DNA of 33,277 nucleotides from an uncultured Eubacteriales bacterium (GTDB taxonomy: Bacteria > Bacillota > Clostridia > Christensenellales > UBA1242), in assembly GCA_900321185.1 (NCBI GenBank), contig ONVD01000011.1, positions 1 through 33,277 of the forward strand, read 5' to 3'. Both the position numbers and the translations under genes were made by a program. The notes under the pieces were generated by a model, which did no database searches, was not told the DNA's origin, and worked only from the letters and a program-made list of their open reading frames with translations. Shown here in pieces: positions 3,518 through 18,615 of this stretch. Within the stretch, counting starts at the first letter, position 1; each line of letters starts with the position of its first letter.

Positions 3518-4642
3518 TTAAACTGTAATCAAATTAACCCAATACGTAGACCAGCCAGGAGGAAATGTTTGGTCCTCTGCTAAAACTTGGCAAACCTCTG
3601 CATGCACTGTTACATCAAGGCTCTTGCCTTGCCAGTCGTTTTCGAGTGCACTTGCTCCATTTATTTGAAAAGAATCAAACAAAACGACTTTGTCATTGGG
3701 CTTTAACTTAAATAGATAATATGTTACGTAATCCGAATCTTCTGCATCTGCCCACCACTTTTCTTCATCCAATGGATAACTTACAGATAAGTCATCTTTA
3801 TCAACATTGAGATAATCTTTGCCATAGATATAATCTAGAGTAACATAAAAACGTAAATACAACTCAATATTGGTATTATTTGTAATGGTTGGATGTATGG
3901 TCAAATCTTCGTTTAATCTTGCACCAGCAATGTTTAGTGTAGTAGTACTTGAGCCACCTTGCTCGACATCTTCTAGGTTAAAAGTTATATCTCCCGAAAC
4001 ATCGGTATCTTGTGGATTTAGATGGCGCGTAAGTACATATGCAATATAAATCCCCGAACCTATTATTGCCATAATTAACACAATGATTATAATCATAGTT
4101 GTAATACGTTTGCCTATAGGTTTACGTGGAACGGTTAATTCTAATCTATTTATTATAGCATTAACTCTTGAACGGGGAAAAAACCACAAAGTTTCAGGAA
4201 TAGCATCCATAAAAATATTTTGAACTGGACTTAGTGGCATAATAGTTAATGCCATAGGTTTTTTAATATGTTTGATAGCACGATGATAGTTTGTGACGCT
4301 ATGTGTATACAATTTGTAAAAATCTTTGTCATCTAAATGTGAAGGATATGTCCCTTGAGACTGTTGCTCCGTAATATCCAATCTTTTGTCTAGCATGTCG
4401 CTTAGATTGGTAGGCGTATTGCGGTCAGATGCACTATTAATGTTTGTGAGTTTTTGCGTAGTGCTAAGAGTAGCGTTTACATTTGCAACTTTGGATACAT
4501 GGCTTTGTTGAGTATTTGATTGAATATTTTTTTTTGCTTGAAGATTACGCAAAAGCTCGGGTGGTAATTTCTTAGGAAGGTTTTTAGGAATAGAACTTGC
4601 TGGTGTAGATAAATTGCCTTTTTTTTGTGCAAAATCTTCCAC
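3518..4642 (-). CDS. Single-pass membrane protein with TasA/camelysin-like extracellular domain
   Basis: Residues 1-178 are polar, rich in Asn, Gln and Lys, and probably cytoplasmic. Residues 180-203 form one transmembrane helix preceded by KR, and about 170 residues follow outside. The outer part carries an ITNNTNIELYLRFYVTLDY segment after a run ending in LTIHPT, a pattern I associate with SipW-dependent TasA/camelysin proteins; this is recognition by eye, not a search result. The start is GTG, chosen because GGGGAGGTGAGG lies just upstream. It heads an operon with the transglutaminase-like lipoprotein. The long cytoplasmic tail is unlike normal TasA. The function is unknown; a surface anchor for a matrix fibre is one inference. 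Confidence 0.7.
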   Translation of the reverse strand: MEDFAQKKGNLSTPASSIPKNLPKKLPPELLRNLQAKKNIQSNTQQSHVSKVANVNATLSTTQKLTNINSASDRNTPTNLSDMLDKRLDITEQQSQGTYPSHLDDKDFYKLYTHSVTNYHRAIKHIKKPMALTIMPLSPVQNIFMDAIPETLWFFPRSRVNAIINRLELTVPRKPIGKRITTMIIIIVLIMAIIGSGIYIAYVLTRHLNPQDTDVSGDITFNLEDVEQGGSSTTTLNIAGARLNEDLTIHPTITNNTNIELYLRFYVTLDYIYGKDYLNVDKDDLSVSYPLDEEKWWADAEDSDYVTYYLFKLKPNDKVVLFDSFQINGASALENDWQGKSLDVTVHAEVCQVLAEDQTFPPGWSTYWVNLITV

Positions 4643-16085: not shown

Positions 16086-16247
16086 ATGGTTAAAATAAAA
16101 AACAAAAAAACAGTCCAACTCGACTGTTTACTCAAAGAAGTAGAAACTTGCGAACAAAAACTCCTCAAGCGAAGAGACAAGAACCTCTATCCAATGTTAA
16201 AAAAATATTTATCTCTAAAAATTGAATTACAAAAGTTCGATGATTAA
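16086..16247 (+). CDS. Possible 54-residue basic protein
   Basis: An open frame runs from an ATG preceded by AGGTG to a TAA that overlaps the recR stop codon tail to tail. The product is charged and predicted helical, with segments such as EVETCEQKLLKRRDK and MLKKYLSLKIELQKF. Against it, its first codons coincide with the recR operon terminator, and its ribosome binding site overlaps a -35 on the other strand. It may be chance. No family recognised. Confidence 0.35.
   Translation: MVKIKNKKTVQLDCLLKEVETCEQKLLKRRDKNLYPMLKKYLSLKIELQKFDD
16102..16129 (-). terminator. Terminator of the mrnC-recR operon
   Basis: On the minus strand AAACAGTC (16122-16129) pairs with GACTGTTT (16108-16115), loop GAGTTG, followed by a T-run. 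It lies about 115 nt past the recR stop. Confidence 0.85.
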
Positions 16248-16837
16248 ATCTCTCGACGCTCATCCAGTGCTTTACTAAGGGTCACTTCGTCTACATATTC
16301 CAACTCCGTGCCCATGCTGACGCCTTGCGCAAGCCTAGTGACCTTAACACCTAGTGGTTTAACTAGTTTGGAGATATACATAGCAGTAGCCTCACCCTCC
16401 ACAGTAGGTGGAGTCGCCATAATTACTTCGGTGACATTATCGTTAGAGATACGACTCAACAACTCCTTTATGTGAATATCTTCCGCCGTACGTCCTTCCA
16501 TTGGACTCAAAAGTCCGTGCAAGACATGATAAGTCCCACCATAATCACGGACTTTTTCTAACGCCAAGATATCCTTTGGCTCTGCCACAACACAAACTTG
16601 ACGCCTATCACCTTTCGCACAAGTATCACATATATCGTTTTCAGTAAAATTACCACACACACTACAATACTTAACTAAGCGCTTGGCATCTAACATGGCG
16701 CTCGCAAAGTCTTGCACGCTCTGTGTTTCGCTATTGATAATGTGATAGGCATATCTTGTTGCTGTTTTACGTCCAACCCCAGGCAGATGCGAAAACTCCG
16801 CAATCAGTTTTTCTATCGGTAAAATAAAGTTTTTCAA
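16244..16837 (-). CDS. recR: Recombination protein RecR
   Basis: RecR works with RecF and RecO in loading RecA at gaps. The 197-residue protein has a helix-hairpin-helix HLPGVGRKTA (about 17-26), a four-cysteine zinc site (58, 61, 70 and 73) and a TOPRIM domain starting near VCVVAEPKDI, with ATPPTVEGEATA and RLAQGVSMGTELEYVD. The start is TTG, immediately after the ybaB TAG with no gap. Its Shine-Dalgarno GGAGGA is formed by the last ybaB codons, so translation is probably coupled. Last gene of the operon. Confidence 0.95.
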   Translation of the reverse strand: MKNFILPIEKLIAEFSHLPGVGRKTATRYAYHIINSETQSVQDFASAMLDAKRLVKYCSVCGNFTENDICDTCAKGDRRQVCVVAEPKDILALEKVRDYGGTYHVLHGLLSPMEGRTAEDIHIKELLSRISNDNVTEVIMATPPTVEGEATAMYISKLVKPLGVKVTRLAQGVSMGTELEYVDEVTLSKALDERREI

Positions 16838-17161
16838 CTAAAACATTCCTCCAGGAATTTGTGGCATCATTTTTTTAGCCAACTCATCAATTTGATGATT
16901 TGCATCATTAACACATGCCATAATGAGATCCTCTAGCATCTCTACATCCTCAGGGTCTACAGCCTCAGGTTTGATAGACAATGCTACTATCTCACGCTTG
17001 CCGTTCATCTTGACCTCAACTACTCCGCCCCCGCTTGATGCATTAACTACGCTATTCTCTAGAGCCTCGCGGTCTTTCTCCATTTGTTCTTGCAATTTTT
17101 GTGCTTGGCGAATAAGTTGTTGCATATTATTGCCACCGCCAAATCCGTTATATCCTGCCAT
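16838..17161 (-). CDS. ybaB: YbaB/EbfC family nucleoid-associated protein
   Basis: A small DNA-binding protein of 107 residues. The N-terminus is Gly and Asn rich, followed by a coiled MQQLIRQAQKLQEQMEKD, the family core GGGVVEVKMNGKREIVALSI, and a C-terminal IPGGMF. AAGGAG precedes the ATG. It lies between dnaX and recR, the classic order, and its last codons supply the recR ribosome binding site. Confidence 0.93.
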   Translation of the reverse strand: MAGYNGFGGGNNMQQLIRQAQKLQEQMEKDREALENSVVNASSGGGVVEVKMNGKREIVALSIKPEAVDPEDVEMLEDLIMACVNDANHQIDELAKKMMPQIPGGMF

Positions 17162-17164
17162 AGT

Positions 17165-17515
17165 TCAATCTCCTTGTCTAATTTTTGTGTTATATCCCAG
17201 TATCGCTTGCAAACGTGCCAACTTTTTGTTTTGTTCATCTTGTTCCGATTCACCTAATACAACACTTATGTTATAATTATATCCAAGACTTTCAAAACTT
17301 GCAACCAAATCTTTGTTATTTTGCAATTTATCCAAAGTTTTTTTATCATAAACTACGATTATGAATCGGTTGTCCTTTATTGTCACTTTGTCAAGATTTA
17401 AGCATATAGAATGAAGTTCGTATTCACGCTTTTCTTTTAGGTCATACAAGACACGTCCCCAGATAGTGCGTGGTGACTGTTGAGTTGTGTTGTCATTGTT
17501 TCTAACTAAACTCAT
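17165..17515 (-). CDS. dnaX: C-terminal domain of DnaX in the -1 frame
   Basis: A 116-residue open frame directly after the dnaX stop. Its sequence RTIWGRVLYDLKEKREYELHS, followed by alternating strands and helices, resembles the C-terminal domain of Firmicute DnaX, which binds the polymerase or helicase. It begins with an ATG overlapping the dnaX stop (TGATG), but has no well-spaced ribosome binding site: GAGGAGG is 13 nt upstream, across the A9 run. The most likely product is a long DnaX of about 482 residues made by a -1 shift. Separate translation or a sequencing error at the A9 run are alternatives. Confidence 0.75.
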   Translation of the reverse strand: MSLVRNNDNTTQQSPRTIWGRVLYDLKEKREYELHSICLNLDKVTIKDNRFIIVVYDKKTLDKLQNNKDLVASFESLGYNYNISVVLGESEQDEQNKKLARLQAILGYNTKIRQGD

Positions 17516-17536
17516 CAGTTTTTTTTTACCTCCTCA
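17513..17536 (-). promoter_or_regulatory. Probable programmed frameshift or slippage site in dnaX
   Basis: On the transcript GAGGAGG (17529-17535) is followed by U and nine A (17519-17527), then CUGAUG. The zero frame ends at the UGA at 17515-17517. The -1 frame is open only from just after its own UGA at 17534-17536, so the switch must occur in these 18 nt. The layout matches known dnaX recoding sites, with an A-rich slippery run and a Shine-Dalgarno-like stimulator. Confidence 0.75.
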
Positions 17537-18615
17537 TCAACCAGCCCGAGTGCCGTCGTCTCTATCAACAATTGTGGATTGGTAGCGTATTTGAGATCAG
17601 ACTCAATCTTACTAAATGATTGTAGTGCTTTGTTAATGCGCACTACAGAACAATCGTTTGCTAACGCAGTCATTTTGCTGAGTAGGTCTTTTTGATAATC
17701 AATCAATGTACTATCCTCTCCGCATGACTTAATTACCAACAAATCTCTAAAGCCTTTTGTCAAGTCACTAGCCAGTACTGACAAGTTTTTGCCTTGTTTG
17801 ACCATTTTGTTAAACTCTACAAAAAACGTCTGTATGTCTTGACGTAAAATTGCATTTAGTAATACATAAATTACTTGTTTATTACTAATGCCCAAAACAT
17901 CAATAACCTTGTCATACGTAATGTCATTATTACAAAAACTTGCACACATATCGGCGATAGACAACGCATCTCGCATACTACCTTCGCCTGCTGTTGCTAT
18001 CAAATTGATAGCACTTTCTTCTGCCTTTATATTACTTTCTTTGAATATCTTAGTTATATTTTGCGCAATCTTATCTGGACTAATAAGTTTAAAGTCAAAG
18101 CGCATAACTCTAGACAGTATGGTGGCAGGCAATTTGTGTACCTCAGTCGTAGCCAAAATGAACACCGCATGTACTGGTGGCTCTTCCAGAGTCTTTAGCA
18201 AGGCGTTGAATGCCCCAGGTGACAACATATGCACTTCGTCGATTATGTAGACCTTGTACTTCCCAACGGCTGGAGCGTACTTGATATTTTCTCTAAGGTC
18301 ACGAATCTCGTCTACTCCGTTGTTTGACGCTGCATCAATCTCCAAAATATCCATATTGTTGGACTGTTGTAGTTTGGTGCAAACATCGCACTTGCCACAA
18401 GGTGAGCCATCTAATAGTGGTGACAAGCAGTTGATTGCACGAGCAAAAACTTTGGCGCAACTTGTCTTGCCTGTACCACGACTGCCACAAAACAAATAAG
18501 CGTGCCCAATCTGCTTGTTGATAATTTGGTTTTTTAAGGTTGTGGTAATATGCTCTTGCCCTACAATACCATCAAAAGTGGTTGGTCTAAACTTTCGATA
18601 AAGTGCCAAATACAT
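17515..18615 (-). CDS. dnaX: DNA polymerase III subunit gamma/tau, short form
   Basis: The clamp-loader ATPase of the replisome. The 366-residue zero-frame product covers domains I-III: Walker A GSRGTGKTS (44-52), zinc cysteines 63, 73, 76 and 79, Walker B IIDEVHML (about 124-131), sensor 1 at ATTE (155-158) and sensor 2 in GSMRDALS. The usual SRC motif reads SRV (168-170), losing the cysteine. It is short for the family because the C-terminal domain lies in the next frame, so it corresponds to a gamma-like form. AAAGGAG precedes the ATG. It follows sigH by 15 bp. No SRP RNA gene was seen upstream. Confidence 0.95.
   Translation of the reverse strand: MYLALYRKFRPTTFDGIVGQEHITTTLKNQIINKQIGHAYLFCGSRGTGKTSCAKVFARAINCLSPLLDGSPCGKCDVCTKLQQSNNMDILEIDAASNNGVDEIRDLRENIKYAPAVGKYKVYIIDEVHMLSPGAFNALLKTLEEPPVHAVFILATTEVHKLPATILSRVMRFDFKLISPDKIAQNITKIFKESNIKAEESAINLIATAGEGSMRDALSIADMCASFCNNDITYDKVIDVLGISNKQVIYVLLNAILRQDIQTFFVEFNKMVKQGKNLSVLASDLTKGFRDLLVIKSCGEDSTLIDYQKDLLSKMTALANDCSVVRINKALQSFSKIESDLKYATNPQLLIETTALGLVDEEVKKN

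Follow-up and report, generated by a model that had tools for sequence, protein, structure and literature searches.

The dnaX gene described here raises the question of how short (gamma) and long (tau) subunits could be obtained from a reading frame that closes at a run of nine A residues, while a DnaX-like C-terminal domain goes on in another frame. The window, by which we mean the whole stretch of 33,277 nucleotides that was analyzed, comes from a 906-kb draft genome belonging to a family of small-genome Clostridia. The features that bear on the question are the following:

17515..18615, minus strand: zero-frame ORF of dnaX (gamma form, 366 aa), with AAA+ ATPase, lid and domain III (Pfam and NCBIfam)
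17519..17527, minus strand: A9 run, predicted transcriptional slippage site (sequence; 80 of the 139 classified junctions are gamma-first with nine or ten A)
17515..17517, minus strand: zero-frame stop TGA ending gamma, one base past the A9 run (sequence)
17165..17533, minus strand: open stretch in the -1 frame with the tau C-terminal domain (sequence, HMM homology and AlphaFold2 model)
17513..17517, minus strand: TGATG overlap, where reinitiation in the tau frame could start (sequence)
17529..17535, minus strand: GAGGAGG, proposed Shine-Dalgarno (SD) stimulator, not conserved (1 of 80 homologous junctions)
16838..17161, minus strand: ybaB/ebfC, the next downstream gene (Pfam YbaB_DNA_bd, 108 bits)
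16244..16837, minus strand: recR-like ORF after ybaB (ORF and gene order)

The last of these we take to be recR from its sequence and from the usual dnaX-ybaB-recR order. The gamma ORF matched DNA_pol3_delta2, DNAX_ATPase_lid and DNA_pol3_gamma3 in Pfam and dnaX_nterm in NCBIfam (440.7 bits). Its 3' end reads GAT GAG GAG GTA AAA AAA AAC TGA, in agreement with the original prediction that the zero frame ends after 366 residues at AAA AAA AAC TGA, and the last six A of the run together with the C at 17518 form an in-phase A_AAA_AAC heptamer. The -1 frame opens at 17533, 15 nt upstream of the frame-change point, and runs to 17165; counted from the ATG at 17515 the tau-frame ORF has 116 codons. 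The third frame, which belongs to neither product, closes after four codons. GAGGAGG had been placed directly before the A9 run, and the word is indeed there (17535-17529), although one T (17528) intervenes.

That a domain resembling the DnaX C-terminus goes on in the -1 frame is borne out by its homology with the tau C-termini of fused DnaX. An HMM made from the C parts of 80 A-type splits (whose own matches carry no weight) recognized the C-terminus in each of 22 plain fused DnaX from the family. It also matched 45 of 96 other fused DnaX records (E <1e-3, a small set of which a few members, e.g., L070 and L072, belong to the family), among them records of Staphylococcus (L126) and Eisenbergiella (L093). 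With the window's own sequence the C part could be located in 123 family genomes, and the AlphaFold2 model of the domain has a mean pLDDT of 83.1. The C ORF of the window gave three sub-threshold matches in Pfam (the best to PolC NII, 18.2 bits for a cut-off of 26.3), none in NCBIfam and no useful match in a PDB sequence search; for the C domain, for which a DnaA domain I-like or KH-like replication fold was considered, Foldseek returned no match at E <=0.001.

We have surveyed the gamma/tau junction throughout the family. Among 197 genomes sampled, dnaX was found in 186, and the junction DNA was examined in 142, of which 139 could be classified; the other three have the gene cut by the contig end (G102), broken near its start (G146) or situated near the contig end (G008). 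Alignment of relatives had been proposed as a check on the split, and the A run with the split recurs, as gamma-first A9 or A10, in 80 of the 139 junctions, from 12 genera; split genes were fetched preferentially, so that this and the following counts do not represent family frequencies. An A9 run with tau in the zero frame appeared in six genomes of five genera (g2 twice, g5, g16, g20 and g28), and an A6 or A7 heptamer only in three (G126, G022 and G038). The C part lies in +1 after an SD-NNN-CCC-stop arrangement in 11 genomes of six genera, and after TTT-CCC-AGN-stop in six genomes of a single genus. It forms a separate cistron in 11 genomes of two genera, and plain fusions made up the remaining 22 genomes (nine genera). 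G015, at first in the A group, was placed manually among the separate cistrons, and G031 is classed by motif only, as its contig ends and the C part could not be followed. Eleven further genomes were inspected outside these counts; two of them, from g4, have a +1 C part and lack CCC. Outside the family but within the same order, dnaX among the matches listed (the best part of 371) always had an open frame of about 490 aa or more, i.e., it was fused.

Several loci met along the way are worth recording. L287 (G016, genus g15) has an A9 run in another phase, ACT AAA AAA AAA CTG, with a stop 12 nt past the run. Six DnaX relatives of 388 aa (P0076, P0080, P0097, P0100, P0102 and P0112) all end in LKNE and possibly represent another type of split. 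In L139 (MAG record Lapin-016__bin82) DnaX is split (355 aa) and the C part lies downstream in another frame, and the junction lacks a long A run. G001, from the window's genus and listed as 97% complete, yielded no clear dnaX, perhaps owing to an assembly gap. Two fused dnaX genes from outside the family have runs of nine and ten A near the gamma/tau boundary (L106 at codon 378 and L261 at codon 388) and are possible tau-first slippage sites.

The reading that we prefer is that RNA polymerase probably slips on the A9 run, so that a short and a long DnaX would come from one gene. Translation of an unslipped mRNA would yield the short gamma subunit, whereas one A more in the mRNA, or two fewer, would lead to the long tau subunit; that both products are made, and in what ratio, we infer from the sequence. 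The assignment of tau to the shifted and gamma to the unshifted product, already made in the original prediction, is well supported by the conservation of the A-run split. Between the two mechanisms then put forward, an E. coli-like -1 shift and Thermus-like slippage, it is slippage that fits better, the E. coli-type SD not being general. We favor it because the pattern NNA AAA AAA AAY is kept, the third frame is closed, the run is kept even as the frame flips, there is no conserved SD word, the family mean shows no downstream structure, and Thermus offers a precedent.

The pattern NNA AAA AAA AAY stands in frame at 75 of the 80 gamma-first sites. The residue encoded by its first codon varies (V in 26, Q in 17, E in 11, L in 10, A in 6, S in 4 and I in 1), and the codon always ends in A; GTA makes up 18% of the Val codons in these dnaX genes, and the constancy of the final A has log10 P = -5.4 with each of 11 genera counted once. 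In the remaining sites, four of genus g3 and G108, the run is in another phase. The stop follows the run at a distance of 1 nt in 68 of 84 A-run rows, four of the 84 having later been moved to other classes. At the junction the third frame runs for 2.6 codons on average before it closes (median 2, n=79, without G108). At other positions of these ORFs the mean is 7.6 (median 5), and none of 2000 resamples was as low as the junction; in a codon-shuffled control it is 7.7 (0 of 500 as low). In the +1 genes, which serve as a local control, the frame not in use continues for a median of 9.5 codons before a stop (n=16, p 3.8e-8). Both the third-frame closure and the nine A exceed what a -1 heptamer needs (six A and a pyrimidine), and this favors slippage.

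As in slippage-type genes, about nine A are found at the gamma/tau boundary of the window and of the 80 homologous gamma-first sites, the tau C domain is conserved in another frame (by C-part search and HMM), and the frames that do not encode tau are closed near the run. A9 runs are found elsewhere too, at codon 118 of the dnaX of G021 and, within the window, in an unrelated ORF (4527-4535, minus strand, GCA AAA AAA AAT, in frame and with no stop after it). Since such runs are tolerated in other genes, A9 alone proves nothing, and the argument is its recurrence together with the split. Against slippage, the phase of the heptamer (75 of 80) is more constant than the mechanism needs, which common descent may explain.

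Both kinds of recoding are known from dnaX, -1 programmed ribosomal frameshifting (PRF) in some species and slippage in others (PMC3711429). Thermus dnaX slips on A9 (PMC3711429, PMC5009743), and that of Thermus thermophilus, as described in PMC5009743, shares with the window the A9 run at the gamma/tau boundary and nearby stops in the other frames; it has tau in the zero frame, whereas the window has gamma there. The gamma-first order is not new either. The GeneTack dnaX cluster of Antonov 2013 is reported as 17 genes from 12 genera that depend on recoding to make tau. At the DNA level the shift is -1 in every one, and 12 carry a run of 7-10 A, for which slippage was proposed (PMC3711429); the reversed arrangement is repeated in a review (PMC5009743). 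Like the window, the genes of that set have, according to the description, two ORFs, a -1 offset and gamma in the zero frame. Gamma-first poly-A dnaX is therefore already published, and the gene of the window belongs to that known arrangement, in a new lineage. What goes beyond the Antonov 2013 set is that the closed third frame was measured, that tau-first and gamma-first genes occur in near relatives, and that sister genera have other devices.

In the six tau-first A9 genomes both other frames stop within 0-4 codons, and the frame arrangement is the one described for Thermus (PMC5009743). Some near relatives are set apart by a single A, and with it by the product that stands in frame. L072 (Candidatus Caccovivens faecavium; Clostridia) has A10 and is tau-first, its DnaX is 95% identical to that of G141 (A9, gamma-first), and on the DnaX tree it sits inside the family, adjoining G141. 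At the protein level, VKKKL in P0031 stands against VKKN in G121 (98.9% identity), and VKKKL in P0048 against VKKN in P0044 (95.8% identity). G108, in turn, needs the opposite shift direction. All four (L072, P0031, P0048 and G108) could be homopolymer errors of the assemblies, and we have rested less weight on such near-relative pairs. Relatives with an uninterrupted dnaX and ten A at this place had been named in advance as evidence against a programmed split, and they exist: L072 and, by protein sequence, P0031 and P0048. They count against a strictly fixed split. We do not take them as a refutation, since the 9-A split dominates among the relatives of the window and frame flips by run length are expected under slippage.

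A less likely explanation, and the best placed of those that compete with slippage, is -1 PRF on the in-phase A_AAA_AAC, with weak or no stimulators, as the source of tau. The A_AAA_AAY heptamer is in phase at 75 of 80 sites. Moreover, two genomes with only A6 (G126 and G022) keep the heptamer in phase with the C part in the -1 frame, and G038 retains A_AAA_AAA in phase, again with the C part in -1; at least in these three genomes the arrangement points to ribosomal -1 shifting. A proven -1 case with A_AAA_AAC and no established stimulator is described for an IS cluster (PMC4066793), while A_AAA_AAC is reported to be far less prone to shift than A_AAA_AAG in E. coli (PMC5009743). The heptamer has no need of nine A or of a closed third frame, and the tau-first A9 genes and G108 need shifts in other directions.

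The well-known -1 PRF in dnaX of Escherichia coli (A_AAA_AAG) occurs at the same gene boundary, and a slippery A heptamer is present within the run of the window. Here the products are reversed, there is no conserved SD word, the family mean gives no hairpin, and the A site has AAC instead of AAG; the heptamer is A_AAA_AAC in the window, and AAC or AAT stands at this place in 75 of 80 sites. The SD-like stimulator of the original prediction did not prove general: GAGGAGG itself was found in one of the 80 homologous junctions and a strong SD-like word in three. Computed SD pairing before the run was only slightly better than background (-2.2 vs. -1.0 kcal/mol). At 17 of the 80 sites the pairing immediately upstream of the run is -5 kcal/mol or lower, chiefly in g34 and also in g31 and g1 (the latter two with few members; g1 is the genus of the window), and this extra pairing slightly lowers the odds of slippage. 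For downstream structure the family mean (z -0.32) compares with -0.57 in the control (n=83). In the window RNA the 99 nt from the junction fold somewhat better than shuffles (z -1.24, 23 of 200 shuffles equally good), unlike the 75 nt past the stop (z 0.84). An E. coli-like -1 PRF with SD and hairpin was thus rejected, as the SD word is not conserved and the family mean has no structure; it is the weaker SD tendency of some genera that keeps -1 PRF as a rival, and a mixed or lineage-specific ribosomal -1 shift may be in use.

Quite improbable, in our opinion, is that termination and reinitiation at TGATG make the C-terminal domain as a separate small protein. In the window the overlap has GAGGAGG upstream, at an SD-to-ATG distance of 13 nt, which is longer than usual. 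The first Met is invariant in nine aligned proteins (the window and eight relatives, 57-76% identical), a kind of start that ORF callers favor, and related genera appear to have the domain as a separate cistron (six genomes of g14 and five of g42, starting with ATG in nine, with GTG in G073 and with only a TTG near in G058). Throughout the family, an ATG overlaps the stop in only five of 80 homologous junctions, 61 of the 80 lack any tau-frame start codon in the roughly 15 nt that follow the stop, and 27 of 83 C-ORFs have no ATG, GTG or TTG before the conserved motif (the first 15 codons were scored in 11 C-ORFs without a recognized motif). The overlap, not kept family-wide, is kept in the window protein and its eight closest listed relatives. 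Reinitiation, which TGATG had been said to allow, may occur in the closest relatives of the window, and as a general mechanism it was discarded, most relatives having no start codon at the junction. Still less credible is a frameshift mutation, phase-variable allele or assembly error silencing tau: homopolymers are prone to indels and 9-A and 10-A variants occur among near-identical proteins, but the split is kept in 12 genera with a conserved downstream domain and is met in database proteins from other assemblies (50 of the 120 closest DnaX proteins listed end in KKN), and by this recurrence of an identical split the one in the window is not a lone sequencing error.

With slippage as the preferred reading for the A-run genes, sister genera would do the same job with separate cistrons or with a +1 shift of the ribosome on CCC. 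We predict 11 +1 sites in which a single codon separates an SD-like word from CCC, with a stop after it. CCC is present in all 11, the stop comes immediately next in ten, and in G025 an AGT lies between. Pairing with the 16S tail three nt before the stop averages -6.98 kcal/mol, against a background of -0.18 (11 genes). Taking both +1 kinds together, a class recognized partly by this very motif, CCC is at the junction in 17 of 17 genes and accounts for five of the 6174 codons of their gene bodies. All 16 +1-frame C parts tested are recognized by the C-part HMM, and the stops are TAA in 11, TGA in four and TAG in two. The SD-NNN-CCC-stop loci, all dnaX 3' ends, are L067, L069, L033, L066 (which has one codon more), L158, L204, L194, L198, L231, L227 and L184, and those with TTT CCC AGN-stop, without SD and all from genus g32, are L151, L192, L164, L169, L167 and L175. 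In L285 and L286 (genus g4) the C part is in +1 right after AAC GCC TAA or GCG AAG TGA; lacking CCC, these form a third kind of junction.

These predicted sites differ from prfB and from tsh of Listeria phages in that the gene is dnaX, the stop is TAA, TGA or TAG, and the outcome would be a gamma/tau pair instead of RF2 or phage structural proteins. As in prfB, an SD-like word lies a few nt before the slippery codon in the SD-NNN-CCC-stop genes. The sister-genus site may work like that of prfB, but without being RF2 feedback. A tRNA-Pro with anticodon GGG was absent from the tRNAs collected from G060 (42) and G057 (39), which are drafts 94-95% complete, so that CCC would be read there by the UGG tRNA. 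Shifting of the UGG tRNA-Pro on CCC is described in E. coli (PMC4519876). A slippery P-site codon followed by a stop is common to prfB, tsh and the sister-genus sites, and Listeria phages make use of +1 shifting on CCC_UGA, as described in PMC5009743; for prfB, PMC12421855 gives TAG as not used as stop. In the open-licence literature, outside which most subscription journals lie, we found no report of +1 frameshifting in dnaX, nor of its exchange with slippage there.

On the DnaX tree, which was built quickly from DnaX alone and is weakly rooted, parsimony requires at least 15 changes between device classes, and six between +1 and not +1. The +1 site of g29 falls inside the A-run clade, where g16 is its sister (support 98, on long branches), those of g32 in another clade, and the remaining +1 sites in a third. 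The device at the gamma/tau boundary thus appears to have been exchanged repeatedly within the family. We lean, with some reserve, toward seeing this boundary as an exchangeable module in which the production of both subunits is kept and the device is swapped (slippage, at least two kinds of +1 shift, -1 shift or separate cistrons), with gamma-first and tau-first forms interconverting by a single base. The importance of the short gamma subunit is described as controversial (PMC5009743). If our reading is true, slippage and +1 shifting would replace each other at one site, making the turnover of recoding signals traceable on a tree, and a family re-inventing the pair of short and long DnaX, both transcriptionally and translationally, would be a natural experiment on how much gamma matters.
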